Under the pieces are notes generated by a model that made no database searches, was not told the DNA's origin, and saw nothing but the letters and a program-made list of their open reading frames with translations. Position numbers and translations under genes: made by a program. A stretch of 21,752 bases of DNA from a virus: the IMG/VR virus record IMGVR_UViG_3300046001_000790, positions 1 through 21,752 of that record; one strand, written 5' to 3'. Positions within the stretch are counted from its first letter, which is position 1, and the number at the start of each line of letters is the position of its first letter. Positions 8,439 to 18,710 of this stretch are shown here, piece by piece.

Positions 8439-8956
8439 TGGCAGTTAATTCCTTTGCAAATATTGATTACACTATTGCTGTTCCTAGTAGTGAAATGACT
8501 TTACTTAGCACTACAACAATGTCGGGTTCTGCAAATATTGAAGTTACTTCAATCAACCAGACTTATAGAGATTTATTTGTTGAAGTTTATAATATGACTT
8601 GGGGCACTGGTAACGCTCAAATTTACATAGACATAAACTCAGATATTTTTGGTAGCAGTGCAAACTGGATATCAAATACAACAGTCGGACTTGTTCAAAC
8701 AAATGCCGTTACTTTATCAGGCGGCAATATTACAAATAACACAGGCAATTATTACGGCATGACGATTAACGGTTATTCATCTACAGCGGCTTACAAGAGT
8801 TTTAACTGGTCAGGTGGTTCTTATTACACAACAGTTTATGCCATGCAAGGCGCAGGAGTTTATATGGCAACGGCAGCAATTACCAGTATCAAAATTCGTA
8901 ATAACGGTCCATATAGTTTTACTGGTGGAACAATGAGAATATGGGGAATCAAATAA
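8438..8956 (+). CDS. Tail tip / receptor-binding protein A
   Basis: A 172-residue, Asn/Thr/Ser/Tyr-rich, beta-strand-dominated protein. From residue 20 it carries the signature MTLLSTTTMSGSANIEVTS, then INQTYRDLFVEVYN, and it ends GGTMRIWGIK. The same order (MTLLSTTTLTGS, INQSYKNLYIIIQN, end GTVLLYGVN) makes up the C-terminal half of the protein at 10189-10965, so the two are paralogous tips. Such jelly-roll-like ends are typical receptor-binding heads. It lacks the fibre-like N-terminal piece of its paralogue and may attach to the fibre by another route. One-base overlaps join it to genes on both sides. Confidence 0.65.
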   Translation: MAVNSFANIDYTIAVPSSEMTLLSTTTMSGSANIEVTSINQTYRDLFVEVYNMTWGTGNAQIYIDINSDIFGSSANWISNTTVGLVQTNAVTLSGGNITNNTGNYYGMTINGYSSTAAYKSFNWSGGSYYTTVYAMQGAGVYMATAAITSIKIRNNGPYSFTGGTMRIWGIK

Positions 8957-9174
8957 TGTCTAAAGAAACAAGACCAACTATCCTTATTCATAACATGGAA
9001 ACAAATGAGCAAGAGATTCGTGAAATGAATGACGAGGAATTTGCTGCATACGAAGCAGACCAAGCAGCACAAGCGACACAGGCTGCAGTAGAAGCAGCCA
9101 AGGCTGCCGAGAAGGAAGCATTACTTGCTCGTCTTGGCATTACTGCTGACGAAGCAAAACTACTTCTTGGATAA
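8956..9174 (+). CDS. Small coiled-coil protein A, probable fibre assembly chaperone
   Basis: A 72-residue protein starting at the ATG at 8956, which overlaps the previous stop; an ATG 15 bases earlier in the same frame is inside the tip gene and was rejected. The first part resembles the N-terminal beta hairpin of tail-fibre assembly proteins (RPTILIHNMETNEQEIREMN). The second is an Ala/Glu/Lys helix ending in AEKEALLARLGITADEAKLL. The helix-plus-LGITADEA ending is common in proteins encoded right after fibre tips. It is a close paralogue of 10967-11188. A chaperone role for tip A is inference from position and form. Confidence 0.6.
   Translation: MSKETRPTILIHNMETNEQEIREMNDEEFAAYEADQAAQATQAAVEAAKAAEKEALLARLGITADEAKLLLG
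9090..9164 (+). repeat. Direct repeat copy 1 (3' end of coiled-coil gene A)
   Basis: Bases 9090-9120 are identical to 11104-11134 (31 bases), and 9136-9164 are identical to 11150-11178 (29 bases). The 15 bases between differ at synonymous positions only. The repeat lies about 2 kb from its partner and could support homologous recombination that deletes or swaps the intervening tip genes. Confidence 0.85.
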
Positions 9175-10966: not shown

Positions 10967-11188
10967 ATGGCTAAAACATCAACTCGTCCAACAGTAAGAA
11001 TTCACGACATTGAAACTAATGAAGTAATTGACCGCGAAATGAATGACGCGGAATTTACGCAATACCAAGCAGACCAAGCAGCATCAGCAGAACTTGCTGC
11101 AGCAGAAGCAGCCAAGGCTGCCGAGAAGGAAGCACTACTAGCAAGACTAGGCATTACTGCTGACGAAGCAAAACTACTGCTCGGCTAA
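10967..11188 (+). CDS. Small coiled-coil protein B, probable fibre assembly chaperone
   Basis: A 73-residue paralogue of the protein at 8956-9174. Both have RPT-x-x-IH-x-x-ETNE at the N-terminus, REMND in the middle, an Ala-rich helix, and identical last 23 residues up to LLLG. It follows tip B after a single base, and GGAGTGA (10954-10960) is its ribosome-binding site. The copy-by-copy pairing of tip and small protein suggests each serves its own tip. The role is inference. Confidence 0.6.
   Translation: MAKTSTRPTVRIHDIETNEVIDREMNDAEFTQYQADQAASAELAAAEAAKAAEKEALLARLGITADEAKLLLG
11104..11178 (+). repeat. Direct repeat copy 2 (3' end of coiled-coil gene B)
   Basis: Partner of 9090-9164: bases 11104-11134 and 11150-11178 are identical to the first copy. 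The tip genes upstream of the two copies are much more diverged than these repeats, so the repeat may be kept similar by gene conversion or strong constraint. Confidence 0.85.
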
Positions 11189-14465: not shown

Positions 14466-14630
14466 CTATTCGTCGTCCTCAAACTCTGCATCTTCCAGTT
14501 GGTCTAGCAGTAGTCGGAGTTGTTTATTTCTCTTCGTTCGACGGAAGTCATCTATAGCAGCAGTAATGATGTTAACAGAGAATAGACCCAGTGATGCACC
14601 AAAGAAAACAGCCCAGAATGTATTTGACAT
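14466..14630 (-). CDS. Small minus-strand membrane protein, 54 aa
   Basis: On the minus strand an ATG (14630-14628) is preceded by a perfect AAGGAG 5 bases upstream, and the frame runs 54 codons to TAG at 14468-14466. The product has an N-terminal membrane segment (about residues 5-25, FWAVFFGASLGLFSVNIIT), a basic patch (FRRTKRNKQ), a leucine-rich helix (LRLLLDQLEDAE) and an acidic end (FEDDE). Charge distribution suggests the C-terminus in the cytoplasm. The gene stands alone, convergent to the late operon, with its own promoter at 14711-14740 and the shared terminator at 14402-14454. It may act early, on the host membrane or against superinfection, but nothing in the sequence shows this directly. 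Confidence 0.7.
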   Translation of the reverse strand: MSNTFWAVFFGASLGLFSVNIITAAIDDFRRTKRNKQLRLLLDQLEDAEFEDDE

Positions 14631-14667
14631 AGTACTCCTTAGATATTATAATATATATTATTACATC

Positions 14668-14754: not shown

Positions 14755-14782
14755 TTGACAGATACCCAACTGTAGATATATG
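14755..14782 (+). promoter_or_regulatory. Sigma-70-type promoter for the early region
   Basis: A perfect TTGACA (14755-14760) is followed 16 bases later by TATATG (14777-14782). The expected start is about 14789-14791, at or next to the ATG of the first early gene (14791). There is no Shine-Dalgarno sequence before that ATG, so the transcript may be leaderless, which is common in Actinobacteria. The -10 match is imperfect. Confidence 0.5.
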
Positions 14783-14790
14783 CTTTCAGC

Positions 14791-14988
14791 ATGTCAATCA
14801 AACTAGAAGAATATACACTACCTGAGCATATATCATACTCAGCGTTCACAACCTACTTAACCTGTGGTTATCAATACTACCTAGGGCGTCTGCTTAACAA
14901 GCAGGAGGAACCGTCAGTATGGTCTGTCGGTGGCTCCGCGTTTCACCTTGCCTGCGAAAACTACGATAAGGTGACACTAGATGACTAA
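14791..14988 (+). CDS. PD-(D/E)XK nuclease, N-terminal part (RecB/Cas4-like)
   Basis: 65 residues from the ATG at 14791, with no ribosome-binding site. The sequence ISYSAFTTYLTCGYQYYLG (14-32) and the GGSAFHLACENYD motif (48-60) match the N-terminus of RecB/AddB/Cas4-type nucleases. Cys25 sits where these enzymes have the first ligand of a 4Fe-4S cluster, and His52 where the active-site His stands. The active-site Asp and Lys and the other three cysteines are in the next frame (14981-15610). A +1 shift after GAC (14983-14985) would join the parts into one protein of about 270 residues. The break is a true split with coupled translation, a programmed frameshift, or a sequence error. Confidence 0.7.
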   Translation: MSIKLEEYTLPEHISYSAFTTYLTCGYQYYLGRLLNKQEEPSVWSVGGSAFHLACENYDKVTLDD

Positions 14989-15610
14989 TCAAAAACTATA
15001 CGATGTTCAAGACCTATGGAACATAGCATGGGATGAGTCTAAAGGTGACATCGACCTAACCAACGCACGTGTCGGTGGCACGGCAACCAAGGCTAGACCT
15101 AACAAAGAGGATGTCACATTCTGGCAAACCCAAGGACCCAAGTGGGTTGAGGGTTATATCGCTTGGCGACAACTCAATAGCAATTGGAAAATCTGGAAGG
15201 CACCAGATGGCAACCATGCAATAGAACTTGCACTCACACCAGTCGTTGCTGGTGTCCCAGTCAAGATGATTATCGACCGTGTATTTGAGGTCGATGGGCA
15301 ATTGGTTATCTGCGACCTTAAAACGTCACAGAAAACTCCGTCTAGTAGTCTCCAACTTGGCTTCTATAAACTCGGGCTAGAGCAGACCTTCGGGATAGAA
15401 GTCAAGTGGGGTAACTACTACATGTCACGTGGCAACTCCACGTCTGAAATGGTAGACCTATCTGAGTATACCTATGACAAAATGGAATATCTCATTAAAC
15501 AATTTGACATAGCACGTAAGGCTCAGGTATTCTTGCCCAACACAAACAACTGTCAGTACATGTGCGGTCTAACCGCTCACTGCCAGTTCTCTACTAAGAA
15601 GGAAAAGTAA
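14981..15610 (+). CDS. PD-(D/E)XK nuclease, catalytic part (RecB/Cas4-like)
   Basis: 209 residues, starting at an ATG 8 bases before the end of the N-terminal part. It carries the catalytic core: Asp99 in KMIIDRVFEVDG, then Asp112-Leu-Lys114 in VICDLKTS, then the QLGFYKLGLEQ helix (motif-like Gln and Tyr, about 124-134). The C-terminal cysteines Cys191, Cys195 and Cys201 are the usual last three ligands of the 4Fe-4S cluster. The fourth is missing here and lies in the upstream frame. Known relatives are DNA exonucleases for recombination or end processing. On its own this part would lack the complete cluster and the N-terminal His. Confidence 0.75.
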   Translation: MTNQKLYDVQDLWNIAWDESKGDIDLTNARVGGTATKARPNKEDVTFWQTQGPKWVEGYIAWRQLNSNWKIWKAPDGNHAIELALTPVVAGVPVKMIIDRVFEVDGQLVICDLKTSQKTPSSSLQLGFYKLGLEQTFGIEVKWGNYYMSRGNSTSEMVDLSEYTYDKMEYLIKQFDIARKAQVFLPNTNNCQYMCGLTAHCQFSTKKEK

Positions 15611-17506: not shown

Positions 17507-17871
17507 CAACTAGAAAATCTCATAAGGCAAGAGGAGCAACTTTTGAAACAGACATCAAAGACTGGTTTAGAGCAAATGGATACGATTCTGAACGACTTGC
17601 AAGAACAGGTGCAAAAGATGAGGGAGACGTTGTTGTCCGTTCGGACTTCCTTGGTAGCATTGGAGTTATCGAGTGCAAAGCCCCAGGCGCGGGCAACAAA
17701 GTTGACCTTAGTGGGTGGACTAAAGAAGCGCAACTTGAAGCAACGCATTATGCGGAAGCGAGAGGACTTGACAGCGGAGCAATACTTCCAGCAGTCCTTA
17801 TCAAAGCAAGAGGCAAATCTATATCCGACTCGTACCTTGTCCTAAGGCTAGGCGATGTCTTTGGTAGATGA
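17503..17871 (+). CDS. Holliday-junction-resolvase-like PD-(D/E)XK nuclease
   Basis: 122 residues; ATGA overlap with the methyltransferase. An in-frame TTG at 17488 would add five residues but has no support. The motifs are Glu15 (RGATFETDIKDWFRANGY), Asp42 (DEGDVVV) and Glu57-Cys-Lys59 (GVIECKAPG). Length and motif spacing fit the resolvase-like nucleases encoded next to primases and helicases in many actinobacteriophages. The likely role is cutting branched DNA after recombination or before packaging. The last 17 bases overlap the primase start. Confidence 0.7.
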   Translation: MTTRKSHKARGATFETDIKDWFRANGYDSERLARTGAKDEGDVVVRSDFLGSIGVIECKAPGAGNKVDLSGWTKEAQLEATHYAEARGLDSGAILPAVLIKARGKSISDSYLVLRLGDVFGR

Positions 17872-18229
17872 TTTACCCGACATTGTATCTGTATTAAAGC
17901 ACTACGGTGCCAACATTACACGTGCAAGTGGTCAGGTAAATGTAAAGTGTCCGTTCCATAACGACTCCCACGCAAGTGCGAGTTTCAATACAAGAAATAA
18001 TATTTTTAATTGCTTCGCGTGCGGTATGCAAGGCAACAGTATACAAATTATTGCTAAGCAAGAAAGGTGCGACATACGTGAAGCAAAGTCAATTGCAGAA
18101 GGAATTACTGGGCAGAGCAACGACAAAGTACGCGGAGAATATACATCTGGCGGAAGATTACCTAGCAAGTCGGGGCATCAGTCGAGAAGTGGCTCGGGCA
18201 GCACGATACGGCGTAGTCTCGGAGCCTGA
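17855..18229 (+). CDS. DnaG-like primase, zinc-finger part
   Basis: The ATG at 17855 lies inside the resolvase gene end. The first 70 residues are a CHC2 zinc finger: Cys32, His35, Cys53 and Cys56 in VKCPFHNDSHASASF and NNIFNCFACG. A helix with SIQIIAKQERCDIREAKSIA follows. After about residue 85 the sequence becomes a low-complexity Ser/Gly/Arg stretch, which is what the TOPRIM coding frame looks like when read one base off. The TOPRIM part of the primase continues in the +1 frame (to 18710). This frame stops at 18229. It could be a separate zinc-finger protein or the first half of a frameshifted primase. Confidence 0.7.
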   Translation: MSLVDDLPDIVSVLKHYGANITRASGQVNVKCPFHNDSHASASFNTRNNIFNCFACGMQGNSIQIIAKQERCDIREAKSIAEGITGQSNDKVRGEYTSGGRLPSKSGHQSRSGSGSTIRRSLGA

Positions 18230-18710
18230 GGTAGGACATGAAGCGTTCCAAGGTCGTCTCTCGATTCCTTACATTACTAAAACTGGTGTTGTTGATTTAC
18301 GTTTTAGGTCGCTTAATCCAGCGGTTGAACCGAAGTACATGGGAATGACTGGCGCAGAAACAAAGATGTACAACGTAACAGATATTGAACGTGCAGGCGA
18401 CTGGATTGGAGTATGCGAAGGTGAATTGGATACAATTACTCTTAGTAAGTGTGTTGGCATTCCTTGCATTGGAGTTCCAGGTGCGAACTCATGGAAAAAG
18501 CATTACACAAGACTCTTGGCAGACTTTGAAAGAGTATTCGTCTTTGCTGACGGAGACCAACCAGGAAAAGAATTCGCCACTAGTCTTGCCCGAGAACTGC
18601 CAGTTACTGTCGTTTCAATGGGGGACGGAGAAGATGTCAATTCTTCGTATGTCAAATACGGAGCCGAGTATATTCGAGCGAAGATGGGGCTAGGTCTAGA
18701 AGATGAATGA
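17976..18710 (+). CDS. DnaG-like primase, TOPRIM part
   Basis: The frame opens at GTG 17976, but up to about 18110 it only shadows the zinc-finger gene. Recognisable primase sequence begins near HLAEDYLASRGISREVARAA (about 18147) and continues through GRLSIPYITKTGVVDLRFRS. The TOPRIM motifs are the glutamate in GVCEGELDTITL (residues near 148) and the DxD in VFVFADGDQPGKEFA (near 190). These bind metal ions for primer synthesis. No good start codon or ribosome-binding site exists just before the TOPRIM part, so a +1 shift from the zinc-finger frame is the simplest way to make a full primase. Split primase genes occur in other actinobacteriophages, as I recall. Confidence 0.7.
   Translation: MRVSIQEIIFLIASRAVCKATVYKLLLSKKGATYVKQSQLQKELLGRATTKYAENIHLAEDYLASRGISREVARAARYGVVSEPEVGHEAFQGRLSIPYITKTGVVDLRFRSLNPAVEPKYMGMTGAETKMYNVTDIERAGDWIGVCEGELDTITLSKCVGIPCIGVPGANSWKKHYTRLLADFERVFVFADGDQPGKEFATSLARELPVTVVSMGDGEDVNSSYVKYGAEYIRAKMGLGLEDE

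Follow-up and report, generated by a model that had tools for sequence, protein, structure and literature searches.

The stretch of DNA analyzed here (the window) is a virus record of 21,752 bases. On its plus strand, a short open reading frame (ORF) of 65 aa, here called the N gene (ATG at 14791, TAA at 14986-14988), overlaps by 8 nt with a second ORF of 209 aa, the C gene (ATG at 14981, TAA at 15608-15610), which is read in the +1 frame relative to the first. The following features were located:

14755..14784, plus strand: candidate N-gene promoter, TTGACA-18 nt-TATGCT (scan, 10/12 matches)
14791..14988, plus strand: N gene, small chain with Cys25, GG47-48, and His52 (PF12705, conservation, dN/dS)
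14863..14865, plus strand: Cys25 codon, first presumed cluster ligand (invariant in 170/170; pairs with the N-terminal cysteine of AdnA)
14944..14946, plus strand: His52 codon, within GSAFH (invariant in 170/170)
14969..14974, plus strand: AGGTGA, Shine-Dalgarno (SD)-like site within the N gene that would serve the C gene (spaced 6 nt from the ATG at 14981)
14981..14988, plus strand: overlap ATGACTAA, comprising the C gene start and the N gene stop (sequence)
14981..15610, plus strand: C gene, large chain with E82, D99, DLK112-114, Q125, Y129, and C191/C195/C201 (PF12705, PF01930, phrog_1870)
15551..15583, plus strand: codons of C191 (15551-15553), C195 (15563-15565), and C201 (15581-15583), presumed C-terminal cluster ligands (sequence, conservation)

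In Pfam, the PD-(D/E)XK nuclease family PF12705 matched the N ORF over profile positions 1-50 (E = 2e-6) and the C ORF over positions 114-247 (E = 2e-7); the C chain additionally matched PF01930 (Cas4). Exonuclease families of PHROG also matched both ORFs (N, phrog_69, 6e-8; C, phrog_1870, E = 2e-38). Since the two ORFs match consecutive parts of PF12705 as well as these exonuclease families, the frames are not a product of chance. A preliminary description of this DNA had assigned Cys25 and the GSAFH motif to the N-terminal frame, and the D...DLK site together with Cys191, Cys195, and Cys201 to the overlapping downstream frame; both assignments proved exact to the residue. The C-terminal cysteines are spaced CxxxC-x5-C in the window, with CxxC or CxxxC occurring in relatives. 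His52, which we take to be the metal ligand of motif I in RecB/Cas4-type nucleases, also lies on the small chain, so that the active site is divided as well as the cluster site. The adjoining genes were assigned via PHROGs to a DnaB-like helicase, a resolvase-like protein, and a primase.

Searching viral contigs with the C chain yielded 80 relatives with 64 to 100% identity, and a second search with an alignment as the query gave at least 583 confirmed relatives, 80 of which were kept. Separate N and C ORFs were found in all 160 close loci in which both parts were visible, including the cultured phage locus L082, and none of them had a fused gene. At locus L163, where the C gene lies at the contig edge, the N part was absent by this search. 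The N gene adjoined the C gene in every relative contig with room for it, and the overlap in four relatives (L002-L005) was identical to that of the window. The cultured Planktophila phages LanE43AprE7 and LanE43AprF5 (OX376640 and OX376641), which are lytic on "Ca. Planktophila" LanE-43 (PMC10202952), both carry the split. Scans with single-chain actinophage proteins yielded 160 further loci, 145 of them fused and 15 split. The latter were divergent (about 33 to 38% identity to the query) and showed the same arrangement as the window, mostly with ATGA or GTGA overlaps and with GAGGAG upstream. Bacterial genomes searched with the C chain of a cultured phage, a search that reaches close relatives only, gave no relative, and thus no prophage or host copy was seen. 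These comparisons indicate that the split is real and conserved among freshwater actinobacterial phages. The preliminary description had envisaged that close relatives might all have an intact single gene; the reverse was found, as all close relatives were split and intact genes occurred only in distant relatives (∼30 to 40% identity).

Residues Cys25, G47, G48, and His52 of the N chain and E82, D99, D112, K114, Q125, and Y129 of the C chain were present in 170/170 pairs. The C-x2/3-C-x5-C pattern was found in 169 of the 170, the remaining one ending at a contig edge. Relative to the window, median dN/dS was 0.03 across 20 comparisons of N and 0.10 across 28 comparisons of C; these values are rough because synonymous divergence was mostly near saturation. 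These results indicate that the N chain is under strong selection.

The candidate promoter of the N gene ends 6 nt upstream of the ATG at 14791. Among 93 distinct upstream sequences from relatives, 46 likewise reached 10/12 for this promoter (control, 1.3%), and in 48 of the 50 relatives scoring ≥9/12, the -10 element ended 6 or 7 nt before the ATG. Because of this spacing, the N mRNA is predicted to be leaderless, with its 5' end on or immediately beside the start codon. This candidate promoter (14755-14791) precedes the first gene of the replication operon and is conserved in relatives. Of 121 distinct relatives, 46% had an SD match of at least 5 nt upstream of the C start, compared with 2.7% at other N-gene positions; for most close relatives, the SD-like sequence is AAGGAG. 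A strong SD match or a promoter match was missing in about half of the relatives under the simple criteria applied. A perfect sigma-70 consensus promoter (TTGACA-17-TATAAT) was also seen at 14624-14652, within the long intergenic region upstream of the replication genes. No ORF begins directly downstream of it on its strand, and a small RNA or an early transcript may be made from it.

For structure prediction, both halves were read through the overlap as one chain, with TAAT as one residue, and the alignment supplied to the model comprised single-chain relatives together with separate N and C chains. The one-chain model had a mean pLDDT of 96 and a pTM of 0.91; its weakest internal block, residues 61 to 70 (pLDDT 79), coincided with the break, a loop between two helices. 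Its best match in the PDB was ACE1 (9iab/9iac; E = 4e-10, TM of about 0.6 over the whole length), with AdnA next, followed by Dna2 and AddB. Among viral models, the best match was a Propionibacterium phage exonuclease. In the model, the N and C chains jointly form a single complete domain; having been built as one chain, the model assumes assembly and is no proof of it.

AdnA, AddB, and Dna2 were the best helicase-nuclease matches in the PDB by both sequence and fold. The nuclease domains of AdnA/AddB and Dna2 resemble the split pair in having one cysteine before and three after the core, and they share its fold; in the family sequence profile, the N-terminal cysteine and the C-terminal triplet align with the cysteines of AdnA. 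In contrast to the stand-alone and split nuclease of the window, they are domains of large single-chain helicase-nucleases. Cas4/ACE1, to which both the best fold match and the PF01930 match of the C chain point, are single-chain proteins tied to CRISPR or Argonaute (ACE1 being Argonaute associated), whereas the window nuclease is in two chains. When twenty other ORFs of the window, which is part of a genome, were compared with PHROGs, replication and virion genes were found and none was named Cas1 or Cas2. In a survey of the Cas4 family, members from mycobacteriophages and Propionibacterium phages are assigned to pfam12705; its text uses neither "split" nor "truncated" (PMC5704561).

The window pair has the hallmarks of a Cas4/AddB-type nuclease, namely, D99, D112/K114, and Q125/Y129, a motif-I histidine, one plus three cysteines, and, in the one-chain model, the fold. 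These motifs are distributed over two ORFs in all close relatives instead of lying in one polypeptide, so that the pair is best described as working like such a nuclease, a split variant and no standard Cas4/AddB-type member. By sequence comparison, two separately translated genes are homologous to a single gene elsewhere, as expected of a split enzyme. We consider it very likely that the locus encodes a two-chain Cas4-like (AdnA/AddB-type) PD-(D/E)XK exonuclease, the chains of which are translated separately and assemble with a cluster across them. Among the readings offered by the preliminary description, that of a two-subunit enzyme agrees with the two-gene arrangement of all close relatives, including the two cultured phages, and with the presence of another gene between the two in some of them; we infer the cross-chain cluster. 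Likewise, we infer assembly of the chains and exonuclease activity in phage replication or recombination.

As the catalytic carboxylates and the lysine are all on the C chain, this chain might instead be a working nuclease on its own, with the N chain as a removable activator or stabilizer and no shared cluster. This seems quite improbable. In the Cas4 protein Sso0001, replacement of any one of the four cysteines rendered the protein insoluble, and the cluster of AddB has been termed a staple essential for structural integrity (PMC3466216). Moreover, His52 and Cys25 of the N chain are invariant to the same degree as the catalytic residues. Separate small ORFs, the form in which the nuclease is present here, are a common sign of gene decay, and the split might have broken the gene and left pieces that are remnants or function separately. 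We regard such decay as highly improbable given that ligand and catalytic residues are invariant across 170 diverse pairs, that dN/dS is 0.03 and 0.10 for the two chains, and that both genes are kept together in every contig with room.

The preliminary description had also raised the possibility of a programmed +1 shift at the stop codon, in which a slip at GAC-TAA would give a full-length nuclease from one mRNA. In line with this, the C frame is +1 in the window and in 90 other records, and dropping one base fuses the frames without obvious loss. However, over 173 split records, the frame of C relative to N was +1 in 91 (60 distinct junction sequences), +2 in 80 (55 sequences), and 0 in 2 (1 sequence), so that a different shift would be needed in 80/173 records; in the two frame-0 records, a stop and a gap separate N from C. 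The overlap also varied in length (1, 4, 8, 11, 14, or 20 nt), and the N-chain tails vary freely (TLDD, ETL, ENG, ENM, and others), as do the first C-chain residues. Furthermore, ten loci have 195 to 931 nt of other DNA between the halves, which no ribosomal shift could bridge. These inserts carry one or two open frames: two in L118/L119, one of ∼135 aa in L061, and one each in L138, L157/L158, L153/L154, L227, and L030. As an internal control, the neighboring primase pair (zinc-finger ORF and Toprim ORF) was +1 in all of 100 contigs in which the nuclease was +2 in 55, +1 in 43, and 0 in 2. The SD-like signals at the C start also argue against a shift, and to our knowledge, GAC-TAA is no slippery site. 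A frameshifted product is therefore scarcely credible. The remaining reading of the preliminary description, in which an intact gene carries a one-base error from sequencing or assembly, has a practically negligible probability. Even though distant relatives are intact, the split is common to independent contigs from metagenomes and to two cultured isolates, with differing junction sequences; synonymous divergence among split relatives is near saturation, and the overlap of the window recurs in L002 and L003-L005.

The inserts at L061:2592-2999, L118:1545-2517, L138:2191-2511, and L227:2671-2910 encode small, mostly coiled-coil-like proteins. Six inserted ORFs compared with PHROGs gave weak matches only and no recognizable homing endonuclease.

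The DNA primase of the window also lies in two overlapping frames (17855-18229, and a C frame open at 17946-18710), with a zinc-finger part assigned to phrog_360 and a Toprim part assigned to phrog_849. This pair was +1 in 116/116 relatives compared, the two frames mostly overlapping by about 130 to 290 nt, and mycobacteriophage OKCentral2016 likewise has two overlapping "DNA primase" genes. Unlike the nuclease, the primase pair could reasonably be explained by a programmed shift or a nested start. Elsewhere in the window, two small paralogous proteins (8941-9174 and 10967-11188) have a near-identical C-terminus (EAAKAAEKEALLARLGITADEAKLLLG). Both are encoded directly 3' of a putative tail-fiber or virion gene and are possibly fiber assembly helpers.

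Returning to the proposed two-chain exonuclease, single-chain relatives of about 270 to 320 aa were found in the cultured actinophages Phlei, Zetzy, RGL3, PHL111M01, OKCentral2016, P318, Manuel, and CA1NRNZ; the single chain is kept in cultured mycobacterial, propionibacterial, rhodococcal, and streptomyces phages. The single-chain actinophage "Cas4 exonuclease" (PHROG 1870/69; Phlei, Zetzy, PHL111M01, RGL3, and Manuel) shares with the split pair the four cysteines, the His, the D, DxK, and QxxxY in the same order and likewise adjoins a DnaB-like helicase and a primase. It differs in sequence (about 30 to 40% identity) and in being one gene, whereas the window has two genes, broken after the His helix. 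In the alignment, the break falls into a variable-length loop after this His-bearing helix.

In a tree of the C domain, the window clade was entirely split, with the single-chain L240 as its nearest outside relative, and a second split group sat among single-chain members. A tree of N plus C required three changes, and its starred branches forced at least two. One clade for all split rows was weakly rejected (AU p 0.036; the group was named after the first tree had been seen). At least two origins of the split are likely from these trees, and a single origin is weakly disfavored on the same grounds. Nested within the second split group is a single-chain nuclease (L202:2486-3289), which may have re-fused or may point to repeated splitting. 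A homing-endonuclease origin of the split was rejected because most junctions overlap and six inserted ORFs gave no recognizable endonuclease in PHROGs; an ancient, since-lost insertion of a homing endonuclease may lie behind it.

We propose that an ancestral gene was cut in a surface loop, which would have given rise to two overlapping genes. The promoter at 14755-14784 would produce a leaderless mRNA beginning with the 65-aa N chain, and the C chain would be translated from its own start, either by re-initiation or aided by the SD-like site in the N-gene tail. The motif-I histidine and the first of the cluster cysteines would come from the N chain, and the catalytic carboxylates, the lysine, and the other three cysteines would come from the C chain. 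Both chains would then assemble, most likely into a heterodimeric exonuclease of the replication-recombination module. With ligands on both chains, the cluster would staple two polypeptides, as opposed to two ends of one. Cas4 proteins hold 4Fe-4S or 2Fe-2S clusters (PMC5704561, PMC4176176), and zinc is held in the structure of a related nuclease (PMC3466216). The four-cysteine site could hold 2Fe-2S or zinc, 4Fe-4S being an assumption. It is also conceivable, if unlikely, that the cluster acts as a switch, such that the nuclease assembles only with an intact metal site. If so, oxygen, nitrosative stress, or host cluster supply would turn the nuclease on or off via chain assembly, a use possible for a split enzyme and impossible for a single-chain one.

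Split phage enzymes are known from Aeh1 NrdA, Aeromonas phage 25 gp43A/B, and T4 topoisomerase (PMC2988022). As proposed here, an essential enzyme is encoded in two genes, and the products reassemble. Those splits are sporadic and go along with homing endonucleases or a spacer that is not translated. In contrast, the nuclease genes usually overlap by a few bases, their inserts are without a recognizable homing endonuclease, and the split, which divides a metal cluster site, is fixed throughout a large clade. In the main texts of the open-licence literature, we found no report of a fixed split that distributes the cluster ligands of an AddB/Cas4-type nuclease over two parts.

For the large freshwater actinophage group, these results correct the annotation: the 65-aa gene is readily overlooked, and the C gene, taken by itself, resembles a complete or truncated exonuclease in annotation. 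The natural break point marks where such nucleases tolerate cutting. Because the split is present in two cultured phages that grow on a laboratory host, the proposal is open to experiment. With the cluster site of the AddB/Cas4/Dna2 class placed on two gene products, the role of the cluster as a structural staple becomes testable, since here it would join the chains.
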